Positions 26,415-34,166 of a stretch of DNA of 37,172 nt are shown here, one piece after another. Below the pieces are notes generated by a model. The model ran no database searches, was not told where the DNA came from, and saw only the letters and a program-made list of their open reading frames with translations. Numbering within the stretch: position 1 is the stretch's first letter; the number at the start of each line of letters is the position of its first letter. This stretch comes from an uncultured Saprospiraceae bacterium (GTDB taxonomy: Bacteria; Bacteroidota; Bacteroidia; Chitinophagales; Saprospiraceae). The position numbers and the translations under genes were made by a program. The stretch lies in contig CALHAM010000125.1 in the NCBI GenBank assembly GCA_937934275.1, positions 1 to 37,172 of the forward strand, given 5' to 3'.

Positions 26415-29400
26415 ATGAGAAGTATTTCATTTTTCTCAGCGGCTTTGAAGAGCTTCTGGGCGATGCTGGTTTTCTGTTGCGTCTCACTTAAGGCACAAAT
26501 GGCGTGCAACGATGTCAGTGTCGTTGCTTTAGGAGATTCTTGCTCGGCTCTCATCACACCCGGCGCAGTGTTGGAAGGCGAAGTTGGCGATACGGGCTAT
26601 GTCGTTCAGCTATTCACTTCTAAAGGCGTGCCGATAGGCAATGTTCTGACGGCGTCGCACTTGGGCGACACCGTGCGAGCCTTAGTAACGCATAAGGCGA
26701 GCGGCAATTCCTGTTGGGGGCGGTTGGTGCCAATAGATGCTTTAGCGCCGGCGCTGACGTGTGTGCCGCTGCAGATTCCCTGCGCGCTGCCTGGCGATTC
26801 GCCGGCTTTCTTGCTGGCATCTGCAGGGCTTTCGGCCGCCTACCCCACTGTAGTGGAGGCCTGTGGGCCGTTTACACTGACGCATGCGGATACCGAGCAA
26901 GTCTTCTCTTGCGTACCTGGGCAAGCGCTCACTCGGCGCATTTGGCGCACTTGGATAGCCACCGATGCTGCGGGCAACGCGGGCACTTGTGCGCAGCGCA
27001 TCGACGTAGTGCGCATCCCAACCGATAGTATTGCCTTTCCTAGCGATACAGCGCTGGCTTGTGGCAGTGCTTTTCCTGCTCCAGCAGTGGGAGGCGAACC
27101 TTTCCTCTTTTTCAACCAAAAAAAATGGCCTCTATCGCTGAGCGAGCCGACGTGTGGGCTTAATGCGACACATCAAGACCAGCTTTTGCCTCTTTGCGGC
27201 GGTGCTTACGCCGTAGTGCGCACCTGGTTGGTGCATGCCGATTGCCCATCCGTGGGTGTGAGCAACCCCGTGCAGCACGTGCAAATCCTCCATGTGCAAG
27301 ACAAGGTGGGGCCGCAGTTACAATGCCCTTCCGATACGCTTGTTGAGACGGATCCGTTCGTCTGTGGGCGCGCTTGGGCGCTGCCTCCAGTGTTGGTGTC
27401 AGACGCCTGTTCGGGCGTAACGTCGCTACAAGCCCGCTGGAGCGCAGGCGGTTTTGAGCAGAGCCAAGCGGCTGTTCTGATGCCCACCGGCGGCTCTACA
27501 GAGGCATCCGACGCGCTGGGCGTTTGGGCAGAAGCCGTCTTCTTGCCGGCTGGTCAGACAACCGTGTTTACTTACGTGGCTGCCGATAGCTGTGGCAACA
27601 CGGGTTCGTGCTCGTTTCGCGTTACGGTGGTGGATGGAGTGCCGCCTCAAGTTCGCTGCAAGCAATTAATTCAAGTTGTCTTAAACAGCGCTGGCGAGGC
27701 CTGGATATGGGCCGATGCCTTTGATGCTGGCTCAGAGGACAACTGCTCGCCGGTGCGCTTCCGAGCGCGCCGAGACGACGCCGGCGCCTGCCAAGCCACC
27801 GATCGCTTTTTTGACCGCCTGCGCTTCTGCTGCTCCGATGTGGGCAAGCTCGTGCCCGTCCTGATGCGCGCCTACGATGTGCCCTTGCCTGAGGATGCCA
27901 TCAGCCCGGAGCTCTTCGAGCAGCAAGCCAACGAATGCGCGGTGTGGGTACAAGTCGTAGACAAACAGAAACCTCGATGCACCCTCGTACCAGAGGTATA
28001 CGTCTCGTGCGCTAACTTTGACCCTTCGCTCCAGAGCTATCCGCCGCCGACCTTTTCAGACAACTGTTGCTTAGACAAGACAGAGGCTCTTCCGCCCGAC
28101 TATTCGGCCTTCGACTCGCTTTGCCAACGCGGTACAATTGTGCGCACCTTTCGAGCCATGGATTGCCATGGGCTGGGCACTAGCTGCTCACAGCGCATCG
28201 TAGTGCATTACGAGTCGGCTTACGCCATCAAGTTTCCGGACGACCTCGTGCTAACCCAATGCGACTCAACCGGGTTTTACCCTCCTGGGCCTATTGTATA
28301 TGGGCCGCATTGCGCTTCTATCAGCCTTTCGTTTCAAGATAGGGTCCATCAAGCGGGTGCGCTGGCTTGCTATTGGATAGACCGCGAGTGGCGCTTCCTC
28401 GATTGGTGCTCCTACAATCCTGCATGGCCCTTGGTGGAGGTGCCTAACCCCAACCCATCGCCCGACCCCCTCTCGCCCGATAACCTGCCCGGCCCAGTGG
28501 TGGCTCCAGCGGGCTTCTCCCCAGCTCCTACGGTGCGGCGCATACAGCCCAACGATGCAGCGCCAACGGACTTCAGCACTTTTTGGTCACCCGCGACCAA
28601 CGGATACTTGTATCGGCAAATCATCCTCATCCGAGACTCTGTGCCGCCTGAGTTCCGCAGCTGTCCCGATGCTTTAGTGCAAGTATGCGACAACACTTCC
28701 AACGATCCTAATTTCTGGAACGCATCTTATTGGAAAGACCCGCTTATCCCGAACAGCCATGACCTGTGCGAAGTGGCTGTTGACTTAACGGCCACGGCCA
28801 TGGACAAATGCTCGAAGGGCAACCTCAACCTCCAGTATCGCCTGTACCTCGACCTCGACGGCGACGGTGTGCAGGAAACTGTCGTGAGCAGCAGCAACCC
28901 TCCGCCGCCCGGCATGGTGCGCTACGGCAGTGCTTTTACGCCCAACTTTGATGGAGGGCAGCTGCGCCAGTTTGACCAACGCCCCGTGCCTCCCGAGGAA
29001 AAATACCGCTTTACCCTCCAGAAAGGCGGTACCGTCAACGCCGCGGGCTTCCTGCGTTGGAATACGGAAAAAGAGCCGACGACGTACATTTTACCTCAAT
29101 TGCCCCATGGTTTACACCGCATCGAATGGATTGCCGACGACGGTTGTGGCAACCGGTCTGTGTGCGGCTACGACGTGCACATACGCGACTGCCAACCGCC
29201 GGCCCTTGTATGCATGCAAGGGGTGAACCTCAACTTGCCTAACAGCCACCCACAAGTGCTGTACGACCAGGATTTTCTTCAATCCCTTGGCGACAACTGT
29301 ACACCGCTGCCGCTGATCCGCATCGGCGTACGACGCGCAGGTGCCGGGCAGGGCTTCCCAACACTACCCGACGGCTCCGCTCAGAAAGCCATAACATTCG

Positions 29401-30764
29401 ATTGTGCTGATGTAGGTCTCCAGGCCGTCGAACTTTGGGCGCGCGATGCAGCGGGTAATACTGCTCAATGCAACACTTTCGTGCGCGTGCAAGACCCTTC
29501 CTCCGCCTGCATGGCAGTGTCGGCACAGGTGGCAGGTTGGCTGAAAACCGACTCCGACAGGGGCCTGCAGGATGCTACCCTAATCCTTGTCGGCAACGCT
29601 CTGCCCGGCGGGCAGGCTACTGCCTTGTCGGGAGAGCAAGGCGACTTTTACTTCCCGATGGTGCCTACCTACGCTGACTACACTTTGATACCTTCGAAAA
29701 ACGATGACCCGCTCAACGGCGTCTCTACCTTAGACCTGTCGCTACTCAATCAACACATTATCGGCTTAAAGCCTTTAGACAGCCCGTACAAAATCATCGC
29801 CGCCGACGCCAACAACAGTCGCTCCGTAACCACCGCCGACATCGTCGAACTGCGCAAGCTTATTCTGGGCATTTACACCGAACTGCCTAGCAATACCTCT
29901 TGGCGTTTTGTGGACGCTGACTATGTTTTCCCCAACCCGAACAATCCGCTTCAATCGCCTTTTCCTGAATACAGGAGCTTAAAGACCCTGGCGGGACATG
30001 CGCTCAACGAGCGCTTCGTGGCCATCAAGGTGGGCGACCTCAACGGCAATGCCATAACGAACAGCGCTGCTGCTGCGGTTGCTGAGCGCACTTACGGGAG
30101 CGCGCACTTGCGCGTGTTGCCCCTCGGACAGCAGCCCCTAAGGGCACTTCAGCCAGGGGAAGTGTTCGAGGTCCTGTTTCAGGCCGATATTCCGTTAGTA
30201 GGGCTTCAGGGCACCCTTCACTACTTCGACTTAGAATTGCTCGATCTCGTGCCGCTTAGCGCCGTCTCCTTTGAGCACTTCGCCGTTTTTGACCAACAGC
30301 AGGCGTTCACGGTGGCCTGGGATGGCATTGGCCAACCGGCCTGGAAGGCTCTCTTTCGCGCTGTTGCCAGCGGCGAACTGCAGCAGTGTATGAGTTTATC
30401 GGATGCTATTACACCCGCAGCGGCTTTTGCCAAGGGCTACTCTCAGCCTCTGGAGCTGCGCTTGAATTTTGAGGCCGCGGCTCATGACACCACTTCACCG
30501 CCCAGCCTCAAGGCGTACGGCTGTATCCCTAACCCTTGGCGCCAAAAAGCACAATTGCCCTTCTTTCTGCCCCTCGATGCTGAGGTATTTTTAGAAATTA
30601 GCGACCTAACCGGCCAAAAGGTTTTCTCCCAAAAGCGCTTCTTTACTGCCGGACATCACACCTTCGAATTGAGTTGCCGCGCATGGCCAGCGCCACCGGG
30701 AGCCTATTTGTTTCGACTGACGGCCAATGGCCAAAGCACCGCAGGCAAAATGATTCGTGAATGA
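26415..30764 (+). CDS. Giant secreted protein with dockerin-like and cohesin-like segments and a T9SS C-terminal domain
   Basis: A 1449-residue protein with an N-terminal signal peptide (to about residue 28, ending SLKA). Residues about 100-1060 hold several cysteine-containing Ig-like modules that begin with phrases such as DKVGPQLQCPSD, DGVPPQVRC, KQKPRCTLVP, VPPEFRSCPD and QPPALVCM, and contain DxxGN turns (AADSCGNTGSC, ARDAAGNTAQC), a HYR-like pattern. Residues about 1045-1095 resemble a carboxypeptidase regulatory or CnaB-type fold (GEQGDFYFPMVP). Residues about 1096-1155 are dockerin-like, with two calcium-loop helices (GVSTLDLSLLNQHIIG and DANNSRSVTTADIVEL). Residues about 1225-1360 are cohesin-like. 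The last 80 residues are a type A T9SS sorting domain (IPNPWRQ, EISDLTGQKV, GAYLFRLTANG). It should be displayed or released outside the cell, perhaps as an adhesin or matrix protein. Its ligand is unknown. Confidence 0.9.
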   Translation: MRSISFFSAALKSFWAMLVFCCVSLKAQMACNDVSVVALGDSCSALITPGAVLEGEVGDTGYVVQLFTSKGVPIGNVLTASHLGDTVRALVTHKASGNSCWGRLVPIDALAPALTCVPLQIPCALPGDSPAFLLASAGLSAAYPTVVEACGPFTLTHADTEQVFSCVPGQALTRRIWRTWIATDAAGNAGTCAQRIDVVRIPTDSIAFPSDTALACGSAFPAPAVGGEPFLFFNQKKWPLSLSEPTCGLNATHQDQLLPLCGGAYAVVRTWLVHADCPSVGVSNPVQHVQILHVQDKVGPQLQCPSDTLVETDPFVCGRAWALPPVLVSDACSGVTSLQARWSAGGFEQSQAAVLMPTGGSTEASDALGVWAEAVFLPAGQTTVFTYVAADSCGNTGSCSFRVTVVDGVPPQVRCKQLIQVVLNSAGEAWIWADAFDAGSEDNCSPVRFRARRDDAGACQATDRFFDRLRFCCSDVGKLVPVLMRAYDVPLPEDAISPELFEQQANECAVWVQVVDKQKPRCTLVPEVYVSCANFDPSLQSYPPPTFSDNCCLDKTEALPPDYSAFDSLCQRGTIVRTFRAMDCHGLGTSCSQRIVVHYESAYAIKFPDDLVLTQCDSTGFYPPGPIVYGPHCASISLSFQDRVHQAGALACYWIDREWRFLDWCSYNPAWPLVEVPNPNPSPDPLSPDNLPGPVVAPAGFSPAPTVRRIQPNDAAPTDFSTFWSPATNGYLYRQIILIRDSVPPEFRSCPDALVQVCDNTSNDPNFWNASYWKDPLIPNSHDLCEVAVDLTATAMDKCSKGNLNLQYRLYLDLDGDGVQETVVSSSNPPPPGMVRYGSAFTPNFDGGQLRQFDQRPVPPEEKYRFTLQKGGTVNAAGFLRWNTEKEPTTYILPQLPHGLHRIEWIADDGCGNRSVCGYDVHIRDCQPPALVCMQGVNLNLPNSHPQVLYDQDFLQSLGDNCTPLPLIRIGVRRAGAGQGFPTLPDGSAQKAITFDCADVGLQAVELWARDAAGNTAQCNTFVRVQDPSSACMAVSAQVAGWLKTDSDRGLQDATLILVGNALPGGQATALSGEQGDFYFPMVPTYADYTLIPSKNDDPLNGVSTLDLSLLNQHIIGLKPLDSPYKIIAADANNSRSVTTADIVELRKLILGIYTELPSNTSWRFVDADYVFPNPNNPLQSPFPEYRSLKTLAGHALNERFVAIKVGDLNGNAITNSAAAAVAERTYGSAHLRVLPLGQQPLRALQPGEVFEVLFQADIPLVGLQGTLHYFDLELLDLVPLSAVSFEHFAVFDQQQAFTVAWDGIGQPAWKALFRAVASGELQQCMSLSDAITPAAAFAKGYSQPLELRLNFEAAAHDTTSPPSLKAYGCIPNPWRQKAQLPFFLPLDAEVFLEISDLTGQKVFSQKRFFTAGHHTFELSCRAWPAPPGAYLFRLTANGQSTAGKMIRE

Positions 30765-31802: not shown

Positions 31803-34166
31803 TCATTGGCGCCCCGAACGGTCAATTGTCGTTGCCGACGCTTGTTGCGTGCTGTACATCCAAATATCCTGCACATTGACGTGTGGCGGTCGGGTGGCGA
31901 TGAAGTAGATGGCTTCGGCCACATCAGCGGCCTTGAGGGGTTGAAAGTCCTCGTAAATGCGGGCGCGTTCGGCGTCGCCGTCAAAGCGCGTCAGCGCAAA
32001 TTCGGTGTCTTCCGTATGGCCTGGGCTAACTTGGCTAACGCGGATACCGTAGGCGTGTAGGTCTAAGCGCATGCCGCGCGTAAGGGCCTCTACGGCAAAC
32101 TTCGTGGCGCAATACACGTTGCCGTTGGGGTACACTTCCTTGCCTGCACTTGAGCTGACATTGATGATGTGCCCGCGGCGGCGCTGCACCATGCCGGGCG
32201 CTACGGCGCGCGTAACGTAGAGCAGCCCTTTGATGTTGGTGTCAATCATCGTATCCCAATGCTCGAGGCTGCCCTCGTGAATGGGGGCTAAGCCTTTGGC
32301 TAGGCCGGCGTTATTAACCAATACGTCTATTTCTTCCCACTCTTCGGGCAGCTGAGAGAGAGATTCTACAACTGCCTGAGGGTTGCGCACATCGAGGGGC
32401 AGGCTGAGCATTTCGACGTCGGGGTATTGCTCGGCGAATCGCTTGCGCAGGGCCTCCAATCGGTCGGAGCGGCGGCCCACTAACACGAGGCGATGACCGT
32501 GTTGGGCAAACACTTCAGCGGTGGCTAAGCCAATGCCCGAGGTAGCTCCGGTGATGAGCACCGTTAGCACCCGAACTGGGTGCTGCTGTAGCGTTTCGGG
32601 CGCGGGCTGGAGCGCTAAGGTAGGTGTAGGTGTCTCTTTTGGAGTGGGTCCGAAGAGGGCATCGCGCTCAGCGGTTCGCAGGTTTGGGTCCAGCGTGCCG
32701 GCGTGTTGGTATAAGTCGTAAGCTTGTTTGTGGTCGCCGGCGGCGTGCGTTAGTTCGGCTAAGGCCATCCAGGCATCGGCGCGGTCGGGCTGCAGAGCGA
32801 CTACAGTTCCGAACACTTGGCGAGCGCGGTCAGGTTGGTCCATTCGGTCGCGCAAGAAGGCGGCGTATCGGGAATGCAGATCGGCATTGTTGGGTTCGGC
32901 TGCCAAGGCCTGCTCGATGTAATAAAGCGCGGCTTCGGGGAAGTCTTCCAGGAGGTGTTCCGTGGTCAGGTCGGCCAACTTGCGGAACACTTCCGGATAG
33001 TTAGGGTCGAGGTCAGCCACGCGGTCCCAGCAGTATTTAGCCAGTAAGTAGTCGCCTTTTGTAGAGGCGGTTTCGCCCATTGCGTTGTAAGCATCGGCCT
33101 CCGTAGGGGCGTATCCGTTGGAGGGTGCGGTGGGCTTTTCTGCCGGTGGTGGCGGAGGAGGCAGCGTTTCGGCAGGCGTTACAGCTATGGGTTCTGGCTG
33201 AGTGAAATGAGCACGAGCGCGGTGGTACTCGGCCAGGGCGATGGCGTGTCCGGGATGTTGTTGGGTCAATTGGCGCAGCATCTCGATGCCGCGTTCCGGG
33301 TAGCCTTTATCTATCCACGTCCAGGCGTTGCGGATGTCTTGTCGGATGCGTATCTCTTCATCTTCTGGTAACGCTGTTTTAGGAGGCTCGATCGGCGGCT
33401 GAGGCGCGTCCACCGTTTCGCTATCGAGTGGTTTAACCACCGTTTCAATGGGCGCTTCTACAGGCTGCGGTGTAAGCGGCCCGCGAAACACTGGGGGGGC
33501 TATCGGCGCACTGGCGATGGGCGCCTCTACAGCGGCCACTGGCGGTGCTTCGGCATCCAAAACGGCTAGCTCTCGATAGGTATGGTAGCGGTCTATAAGG
33601 CCGAAGTGCTGAAAGAACAGCGCGTATTCATCGGCCTTGAAGGCGTCCCAACGCGCATAACCCGCCTCGCGCAGCGCCGTAAACAGCTCGCCGATATCGT
33701 TGGCTATCAGCCGGTAGGTTTCTACCTCGCGGTCGTAGGCTTCACGTTGCTCCAGCGGGGCCTCGCGCAGGCGATCGGTACTTTTTAGGAAGACTTCTTG
33801 CCAATAATTCATGTAGCGCACCACCTCGCCGGCGCGCTCAAAATGCGTAGGTACAGGGCGACGACTGCCGTCGGGTTGCACCTCACAGCCGTCAGCCACC
33901 ACCGTGAGCAAGCGCTTTTGCACCGAGAGCGTCTGGTACATCTTCCAAGCGCCAGCCATGCACAGCGGGTTTTTCAAAAAGTTGTCGGTCAACAGCCACA
34001 ATACCGGGCCGCCAGTAGCTTCCATGCGGGCGCTTAAGCGGCCCGGCAGCTCGTTGGGCTGAGGCGTGTGATGTTCAAAGACAATGCCCGCCCGGCCCAA
34101 ATCGGCCGTCAGACGGTTGGCTAAGGCGCGGTTCTCGGGGGCATACAGGAGGTGTATAGAAATCAT
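31803..34166 (-). CDS. TIR-like/TPR/short-chain dehydrogenase fusion protein
   Basis: A single uninterrupted 787-residue protein. Residues 1 to about 190 are TIR-like: first strand ISIHLLYAP, helix ENRALANRLTADLG, a BB-loop-like stretch (PQPNELPGRLS), then the strand GPVLWLLTDNFLKNPLC. A Pro/Ala-rich linker (about 205-265) leads to TPR repeats (about 270-320 and 355-505), divided by a polyproline stretch at about 335-341. Residues about 532-787 are a complete YdfG-type SDR: cofactor motif TGATSGIG (539-546), VNNAG (617-621), catalytic Ser672 (one of three serines, 671-673) and YCATK with Tyr685 and Lys689; GRRSDR after the second strand favours NADP(H). The TIR lacks the Glu expected two residues after the LC dipeptide (Gly72), so NADase activity is doubtful. 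The role is unknown; an enzyme recruited by TIR or TPR contacts is one reading. Confidence 0.85.
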   Translation of the reverse strand: MISIHLLYAPENRALANRLTADLGRAGIVFEHHTPQPNELPGRLSARMEATGGPVLWLLTDNFLKNPLCMAGAWKMYQTLSVQKRLLTVVADGCEVQPDGSRRPVPTHFERAGEVVRYMNYWQEVFLKSTDRLREAPLEQREAYDREVETYRLIANDIGELFTALREAGYARWDAFKADEYALFFQHFGLIDRYHTYRELAVLDAEAPPVAAVEAPIASAPIAPPVFRGPLTPQPVEAPIETVVKPLDSETVDAPQPPIEPPKTALPEDEEIRIRQDIRNAWTWIDKGYPERGIEMLRQLTQQHPGHAIALAEYHRARAHFTQPEPIAVTPAETLPPPPPPAEKPTAPSNGYAPTEADAYNAMGETASTKGDYLLAKYCWDRVADLDPNYPEVFRKLADLTTEHLLEDFPEAALYYIEQALAAEPNNADLHSRYAAFLRDRMDQPDRARQVFGTVVALQPDRADAWMALAELTHAAGDHKQAYDLYQHAGTLDPNLRTAERDALFGPTPKETPTPTLALQPAPETLQQHPVRVLTVLITGATSGIGLATAEVFAQHGHRLVLVGRRSDRLEALRKRFAEQYPDVEMLSLPLDVRNPQAVVESLSQLPEEWEEIDVLVNNAGLAKGLAPIHEGSLEHWDTMIDTNIKGLLYVTRAVAPGMVQRRRGHIINVSSSAGKEVYPNGNVYCATKFAVEALTRGMRLDLHAYGIRVSQVSPGHTEDTEFALTRFDGDAERARIYEDFQPLKAADVAEAIYFIATRPPHVNVQDIWMYSTQQASATTIDRSGRQ

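Follow-up and report, generated by a model that had tools for sequence, protein, structure and literature searches.

What is a TIR domain doing on the same chain as a metabolic dehydrogenase? The question is raised by a single open reading frame of 787 codons, with an ATG start, on the minus strand of the window (the whole stretch of 37,172 nucleotides that was analyzed, Table 1). A first-pass annotation had described this frame as a three-part arrangement of TIR, TPR, and SDR modules. This layout was confirmed, and the orthologues share it. The TIR domain has additional elements, namely a β-hairpin at residues 93–105 and a C-terminal helical extension at residues 138–206. The TPR motifs scored above the Pfam cut-offs, with 40.5, 39.2, and 35.6 bits for TPR_17, TPR_19, and TPR_14 against cut-offs of 24.4, 25, and 23.5 bits, respectively. 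Linker 1 contains a GxLxPxP motif, a pattern picked post hoc from the viewed alignment, which was found in 22 of 27 genus copies versus 0.5 expected from shuffles, and in 0 of 31 other copies tested.

Table 1. Features of the fusion gene, with positions counted from the first letter of the window
Feature	Residues	Positions	Strand	Basis
TIR-TPR-SDR fusion gene, 787 aa		31803..34166	-	ORF and orthologue comparison
TIR domain	1-206	33549..34166	-	fold and predicted model
Gly72, catalytic-glutamate position of TIR domains	72	33951..33953	-	sequence alignment, not superposed coordinates
Linker 1, proline-rich, predicted disordered	207-267	33366..33548	-	pLDDT <50 at 210-265
GPLTPQP, motif GxLxPxP within linker 1	229-235	33462..33482	-	genus alignment
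TPR-like block, three helices	268-321	33204..33365	-	alignment and model
Linker 2, predicted disordered	322-355	33102..33203	-	pLDDT <50 at 323-352
TPR array, nine helices	356-505	32652..33101	-	Pfam and model
Linker 3, predicted disordered	506-531	32574..32651	-	pLDDT <50 at 509-529
Classical SDR, YdfG type, complete	532-787	31806..32573	-	profile, alignment, structure match
Asn644, SDR tetrad	644	32235..32237	-	alignment; presumed role
Ser672, SDR tetrad	672	32151..32153	-	alignment; presumed role
Tyr685, SDR tetrad	685	32112..32114	-	alignment; presumed role
Lys689, SDR tetrad	689	32100..32102	-	alignment; presumed role

The dehydrogenase part had been called intact, with cofactor motif and catalytic residues, and this was borne out in 90 aligned SDRs. 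The window SDR carries the glycine motif TGATSGIG. Residues G540, G544, G546, N644, S672, Y685, and K689 were identical in 90 of 90 rows, and T539 was Thr in 75 and Ser in 15. The tetrad and Arg565 were identical in both subsets, the 60 fused or split SDRs and the 30 stand-alone ones. R565 was present in 90/90 rows and R566 in 89/90; these are presumably the basic residues that follow strand 2, which would point to a preference for NADP. In the matches listed for the 37 genomes of the genus, no other SDR exceeded about 40% identity, fragments of the same gene aside.

The N-terminal domain adopts a TIR fold by structure comparison, and its best matches include known NADase TIR domains. Foldseek by itself gave a weak signal for this fold. 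The TIR-like N-terminus proposed earlier was thus recovered in the fold comparison, and a non-TIR fold for residues 1–190 was ruled out by the structure matches to TIR domains. At E ≤ 0.1, TIR_2 matched 34 of 52 alignment members (best 3e-16), and at E ≤ 1 it matched 18 of 27 genus members (best 2.5e-6); the window protein by itself scored under the Pfam cut-off for TIR_2. When the family profile was compared with PDB sequences, the top rows were MyD88, TIRAP/Mal, and TRAM, of which MyD88 alone was significant (5.7e-5). Tyr118 and Trp122 were invariant in 111 of 111 domains. The window's own genome holds five further TIR_2 matches, on contigs C45, C15, C141, C46, and C122.

The fusion was present in 27 of 27 fetched genus loci (the first residues of L046 lie beyond the contig end), which together with the window represent 28 of 37 genus genomes. 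Among the nine genus genomes that were not fetched, seven had fusion fragments and two had distant SDRs only. In other genera of Saprospiraceae, 31 of 32 loci were fused and one was split. A further scan, which partly overlaps the genomes of these sets, gave 74 loci, of which 62 were fused, 8 were cut by contig ends, 2 had TIR and SDR in neighboring ORFs, and 2 were without SDR. In genus g49, a TIR-TPR gene is followed by an SDR gene 8–11 nt away in three species (L111, L258, and L259). With a genus-trained profile, the N-terminal domain was detected in 229 of 398 family genomes and 70 of 112 genera; this profile underscores distant copies, since G285, G363, and G429 moved from 1e-8 to 1e-11 to 1e-23 or better with a wider profile. 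The domain was matched in 36 of 248 order genomes, one of them outside the family (L112, without SDR), and was single-copy in all 36 and in nearly all of the 229 family genomes. Outside the family, matches occurred in six of 345 class genomes and five of 345 phylum genomes, with one in both, and this SDR was not found in the loci fetched from them. By Pfam, four of these outside-family matches were TIR domains joined to Schlafen AlbA_2, dynamin (two), or EAD11, which are defence-like partners. An assembly artefact was ruled out by the recurrence of the fusion in many genomes; rather than being confined to this assembly, an outcome that the first-pass annotation had named as damaging, the fusion occurs across Saprospiraceae. 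Two ORFs, L191 3989–6511 (840 aa) and L236 4001–4753 (250 aa), carry the family TIR domain without SDR. The fusion also appeared on a 6.8-kb contig (L166) of a MAG named Thermoanaerobaculia, where binning contamination is likely.

By alignment on the family profile, the window has Gly72 at the position of the TIR NADase glutamate; we take position 72 to be the catalytic column from its CMxE context and the known TIR motif, not from superposed coordinates. Glu was found at this position in 12 of 110 distinct family copies, a set that includes a few cut or unfused copies and one from the mislabeled MAG L166. Of the remaining 98, 50 had Gly, and most others had Arg, Gln, Asp, or Asn. The 111th alignment row, L112, belongs to another family and has Glu. 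Eight additional copies (L258–L264 and L266) lacked Glu at position 72. In contrast, all 21 related TIR domains for which no link to this SDR was seen carry Glu, mostly in a CMxE context. These relatives comprise seven within Saprospiraceae (L265 and L267–L272) and 14 outside it. A search of the 21 loci gave no SDR match; six of their ORFs leave the fetched stretch (L240, L241, and L255 at the far end; L243, L245, and L268 at the near end), and in L256 the TIR is split over two ORFs. Among the 12 Glu-bearing family copies, seven (L114, L187, L192, L195, L196, L208, and L230) share the context CM(F/Y)E(A/V)L, as in L114, which splits off first among the family's SDRs in the tree (support 87/89). 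That Glu is mostly missing from SDR-linked domains but retained by the relatives not seen linked suggests that the TIR part changed its role. The proposal that NAD+-related TIR chemistry is coupled to the redox enzyme fared poorly here, given Gly72 and the 98/110 non-Glu copies against 21/21 Glu in relatives not seen fused to this SDR. One family genome, G429, has three more Glu-bearing TIR proteins without SDR (L269, L271, and L272).

The protein is probably an NADP(H) dehydrogenase with a noncatalytic TIR/TPR interaction arm, through which the enzyme would be tethered, clustered, or regulated. Its core would be a housekeeping NADP(H)-dependent SDR of the YdfG/serine dehydrogenase (3-hydroxy acid) type that is presumably active, and its substrate may be a small 3-hydroxy acid, a β-hydroxy amino acid, or a semialdehyde. 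The arm would consist of a TIR fold minus the NAD+-cleaving residue and of TPR repeats, strung on linkers predicted to be disordered. It would most likely act by binding partners, whether different proteins or further copies of itself; judged by sequence, it would not itself cleave NAD+. YdfG-type SDRs are tetramers, so the enzyme would display several TIR-TPR arms. This reading agrees with the "scaffolded" redox enzyme suggested at first pass. No partner of the arm was found.

The TIR part is under clear purifying selection. Comparison of the window, L021, and L022 with one another (three pairs) gave dN/dS values of 0.03–0.05 for residues 1–130, 0.04–0.08 for the SDR, and 0.07–0.14 for the TPR array; for linker 1 a single pair allowed an estimate, 0.28. 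In six other pairs, TIR values were 0.025–0.041 in three, 0.12 in one, and 0.23 in two, and SDR values were 0.02–0.09 (one not estimable), with several dS values near saturation. Mean column identity across the genus was 56% for the TIR, 79% for the SDR, and 35% for the TPR. These values indicate that the TIR part is retained for something, more loosely than the SDR. The TIR dN/dS of 0.23 in two of nine pairs, well over that of the SDR, counts against an interaction arm, as do the lower TIR identity across the genus and the presence of NADases among the best structure matches. A tentative extension, which we hold to be doubtful, is that the TIR was domesticated from NAD cleavage into metabolism, losing its residue after SDR fusion and becoming a polymerizing or docking device. 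In the same scenario, and with equal hesitation, TIR-driven assemblies might collect the metabolic enzyme, and the NADP(H) state of the SDR could perhaps gate them.

The SDR also occurs without the arm. Of 20 family genomes listed as lacking the N-terminal domain, 18 carried the same SDR as a stand-alone gene of 251–277 aa, and in two no SDR match was found at the limit used. Many family members thus have this SDR but no arm, which makes the arm dispensable. A gene weakly like DsbE/ResA thiol-disulfide proteins (likeness below NCBIfam cut-offs, one member tested) is encoded upstream in the same orientation at 57 loci (e.g., L047 2370–3692). It occurs in 23 of the 28 genus loci, 18 of the 32 from other genera of the family, and 16 of the 18 with a stand-alone SDR; it was found in 0 of 13 loci from other families of the order. 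In all but two of the 57 loci, the gap between this gene and the fusion or SDR ranged from -20 to 270 nt; the exceptions are L129 and the split locus L111, in which the TIR-TPR gene comes in between. In nine of the 16 stand-alone loci with the gene, the gap was -4. Since the DsbE/ResA-like gene precedes both the fusion and the bare SDR, the arm sits between that gene and the SDR. This neighbor is absent at the window, L021, L022, and L023. Further upstream, a 177-aa gene occurs in 25 loci and a GltP/DctA-like symporter in 15. The window's upstream MltG gene is common to L021 and L022, its BamD-like gene to L022 only, and its AraC-type neighbor to none. The neighborhood was dropped as a clue to function; the more widely conserved DsbE/ResA-like gene does not name a substrate. 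Elsewhere in the window, a 1449-aa ORF at 26415–30764 (+) has, by eye, the look of a secreted protein made of repeats and ending in a sorting tail.

In a redox-gated signaling scaffold, the SDR would be mainly an NADP(H) sensor and oligomerizing core and the TIR/TPR part the output. Such a scaffold would suit a TIR constrained like the SDR in the window's closest kin. TIR modules can work by assembly, and MyD88 and Mal function through TIR assemblies, according to an excerpt of a published account (PMC9153377). We nevertheless consider the scaffold unlikely, since the full tetrad is kept and many family members carry the SDR with no TIR-TPR, there mostly next to the same DsbE/ResA-like gene. 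Enzyme activity therefore seems to be the core function.

The history of the arm was traced on a tree of the 90 SDRs, the bootstrap of which had not settled. On this tree, the label "fused" needs at least seven changes, three of them forced by well-supported branches. Constraining fused and split forms to one clade gave a p-AU of 0.045, and constraining the family's stand-alone forms to one clade gave 0.11. One fusion followed by several losses is tentatively favored over several fusions because the first family branches (L114 and L113) are fused and the split-form SDR of g49 nests among fused SDRs (96/95; long branch). The arm's repeated gain or loss would suit a passive fusion, two unrelated functions left uncoupled on one chain, as would the full-length predicted model (pTM 0.38), in which the modules make no fixed contact with one another. 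However, the fusion is kept across many genera, the split genes are still adjacent in three species, and the loss of Glu largely tracks SDR joining, suggesting a role change of the TIR. Passive fusion is, in our judgment, quite improbable.

A TIR that actively hydrolyzes or cyclizes NAD(P)+, feeding on or controlling the nucleotide pool of the SDR, would draw on the true TIR fold and on the Glu kept in 12/110 copies, so NAD+ cleavage is possible in those lineages. With Gly in the window and non-Glu residues in the other 98, we judge this reading very unlikely. The defence-like partners of the four outside-family TIR relatives could hint at an anti-phage or immune protein, which is the least credible reading given the lost catalytic residue, the single-copy occurrence, the same upstream gene with and without the arm, and no PADLOC match (0 families at E ≤ 0.01). 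A known defence system was set aside on the same PADLOC result.

Herein, the preferred reading of a dehydrogenase with an interaction arm can be set against known systems. YdfG of E. coli (PDB 3asu and 3asv; NCBIfam PRK10538), an NADP-dependent serine/3-hydroxy acid dehydrogenase, matched window residues 535–777 with a phmmer E-value of 4e-65, and Foldseek matched structure 3asv to the window SDR at 44% identity. The cofactor motif and tetrad of YdfG-type SDRs are kept. The window protein scored 251.3 bits, below the PRK10538 cut-off of 411, making it a relative and not the named equivalog, and unlike YdfG it has an N-terminal arm of ~530 residues. YdfG acts on malonic semialdehyde, as stated in an excerpt of PMC12455653. 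MyD88, TIRAP/Mal, and TRAM are animal innate immunity adaptors without an SDR, and their similarity to the window TIR is remote. The bacterial TIR structures PdTIR, TcpB/BtpA, BtTir, and AbTir, which we take to be NADases, differ from the window in its Gly72 at the Glu position. The catalytic glutamate is not present in all TIRs, according to the excerpted account above (PMC9153377). A similar arrangement, L112 (451 aa) from another family of the order, is matched by two of the sequence profiles (A2 and A4) and has TIR followed by TPR as in the window, but it lacks the SDR, keeps Glu (CMYE), and matches Pfam TIR_2 at E 1.3e-15.

Most of what is known about TIR domains comes from immunity and NAD+ signaling. 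Our results suggest that this immune-type fold was apparently reused as a protein connector on a metabolic dehydrogenase. Glu-bearing relatives not seen fused to this SDR, an early fused clade with Glu, fused forms without Glu, a split pair, and bare SDRs next to the same upstream gene together offer a natural series for studying nonenzymatic TIR roles. No published description of a TIR-TPR-SDR architecture was found in the open-access PMC text that was searched. The parts are known singly; their stable combination and a mostly Glu-less TIR on a metabolic enzyme seem new.
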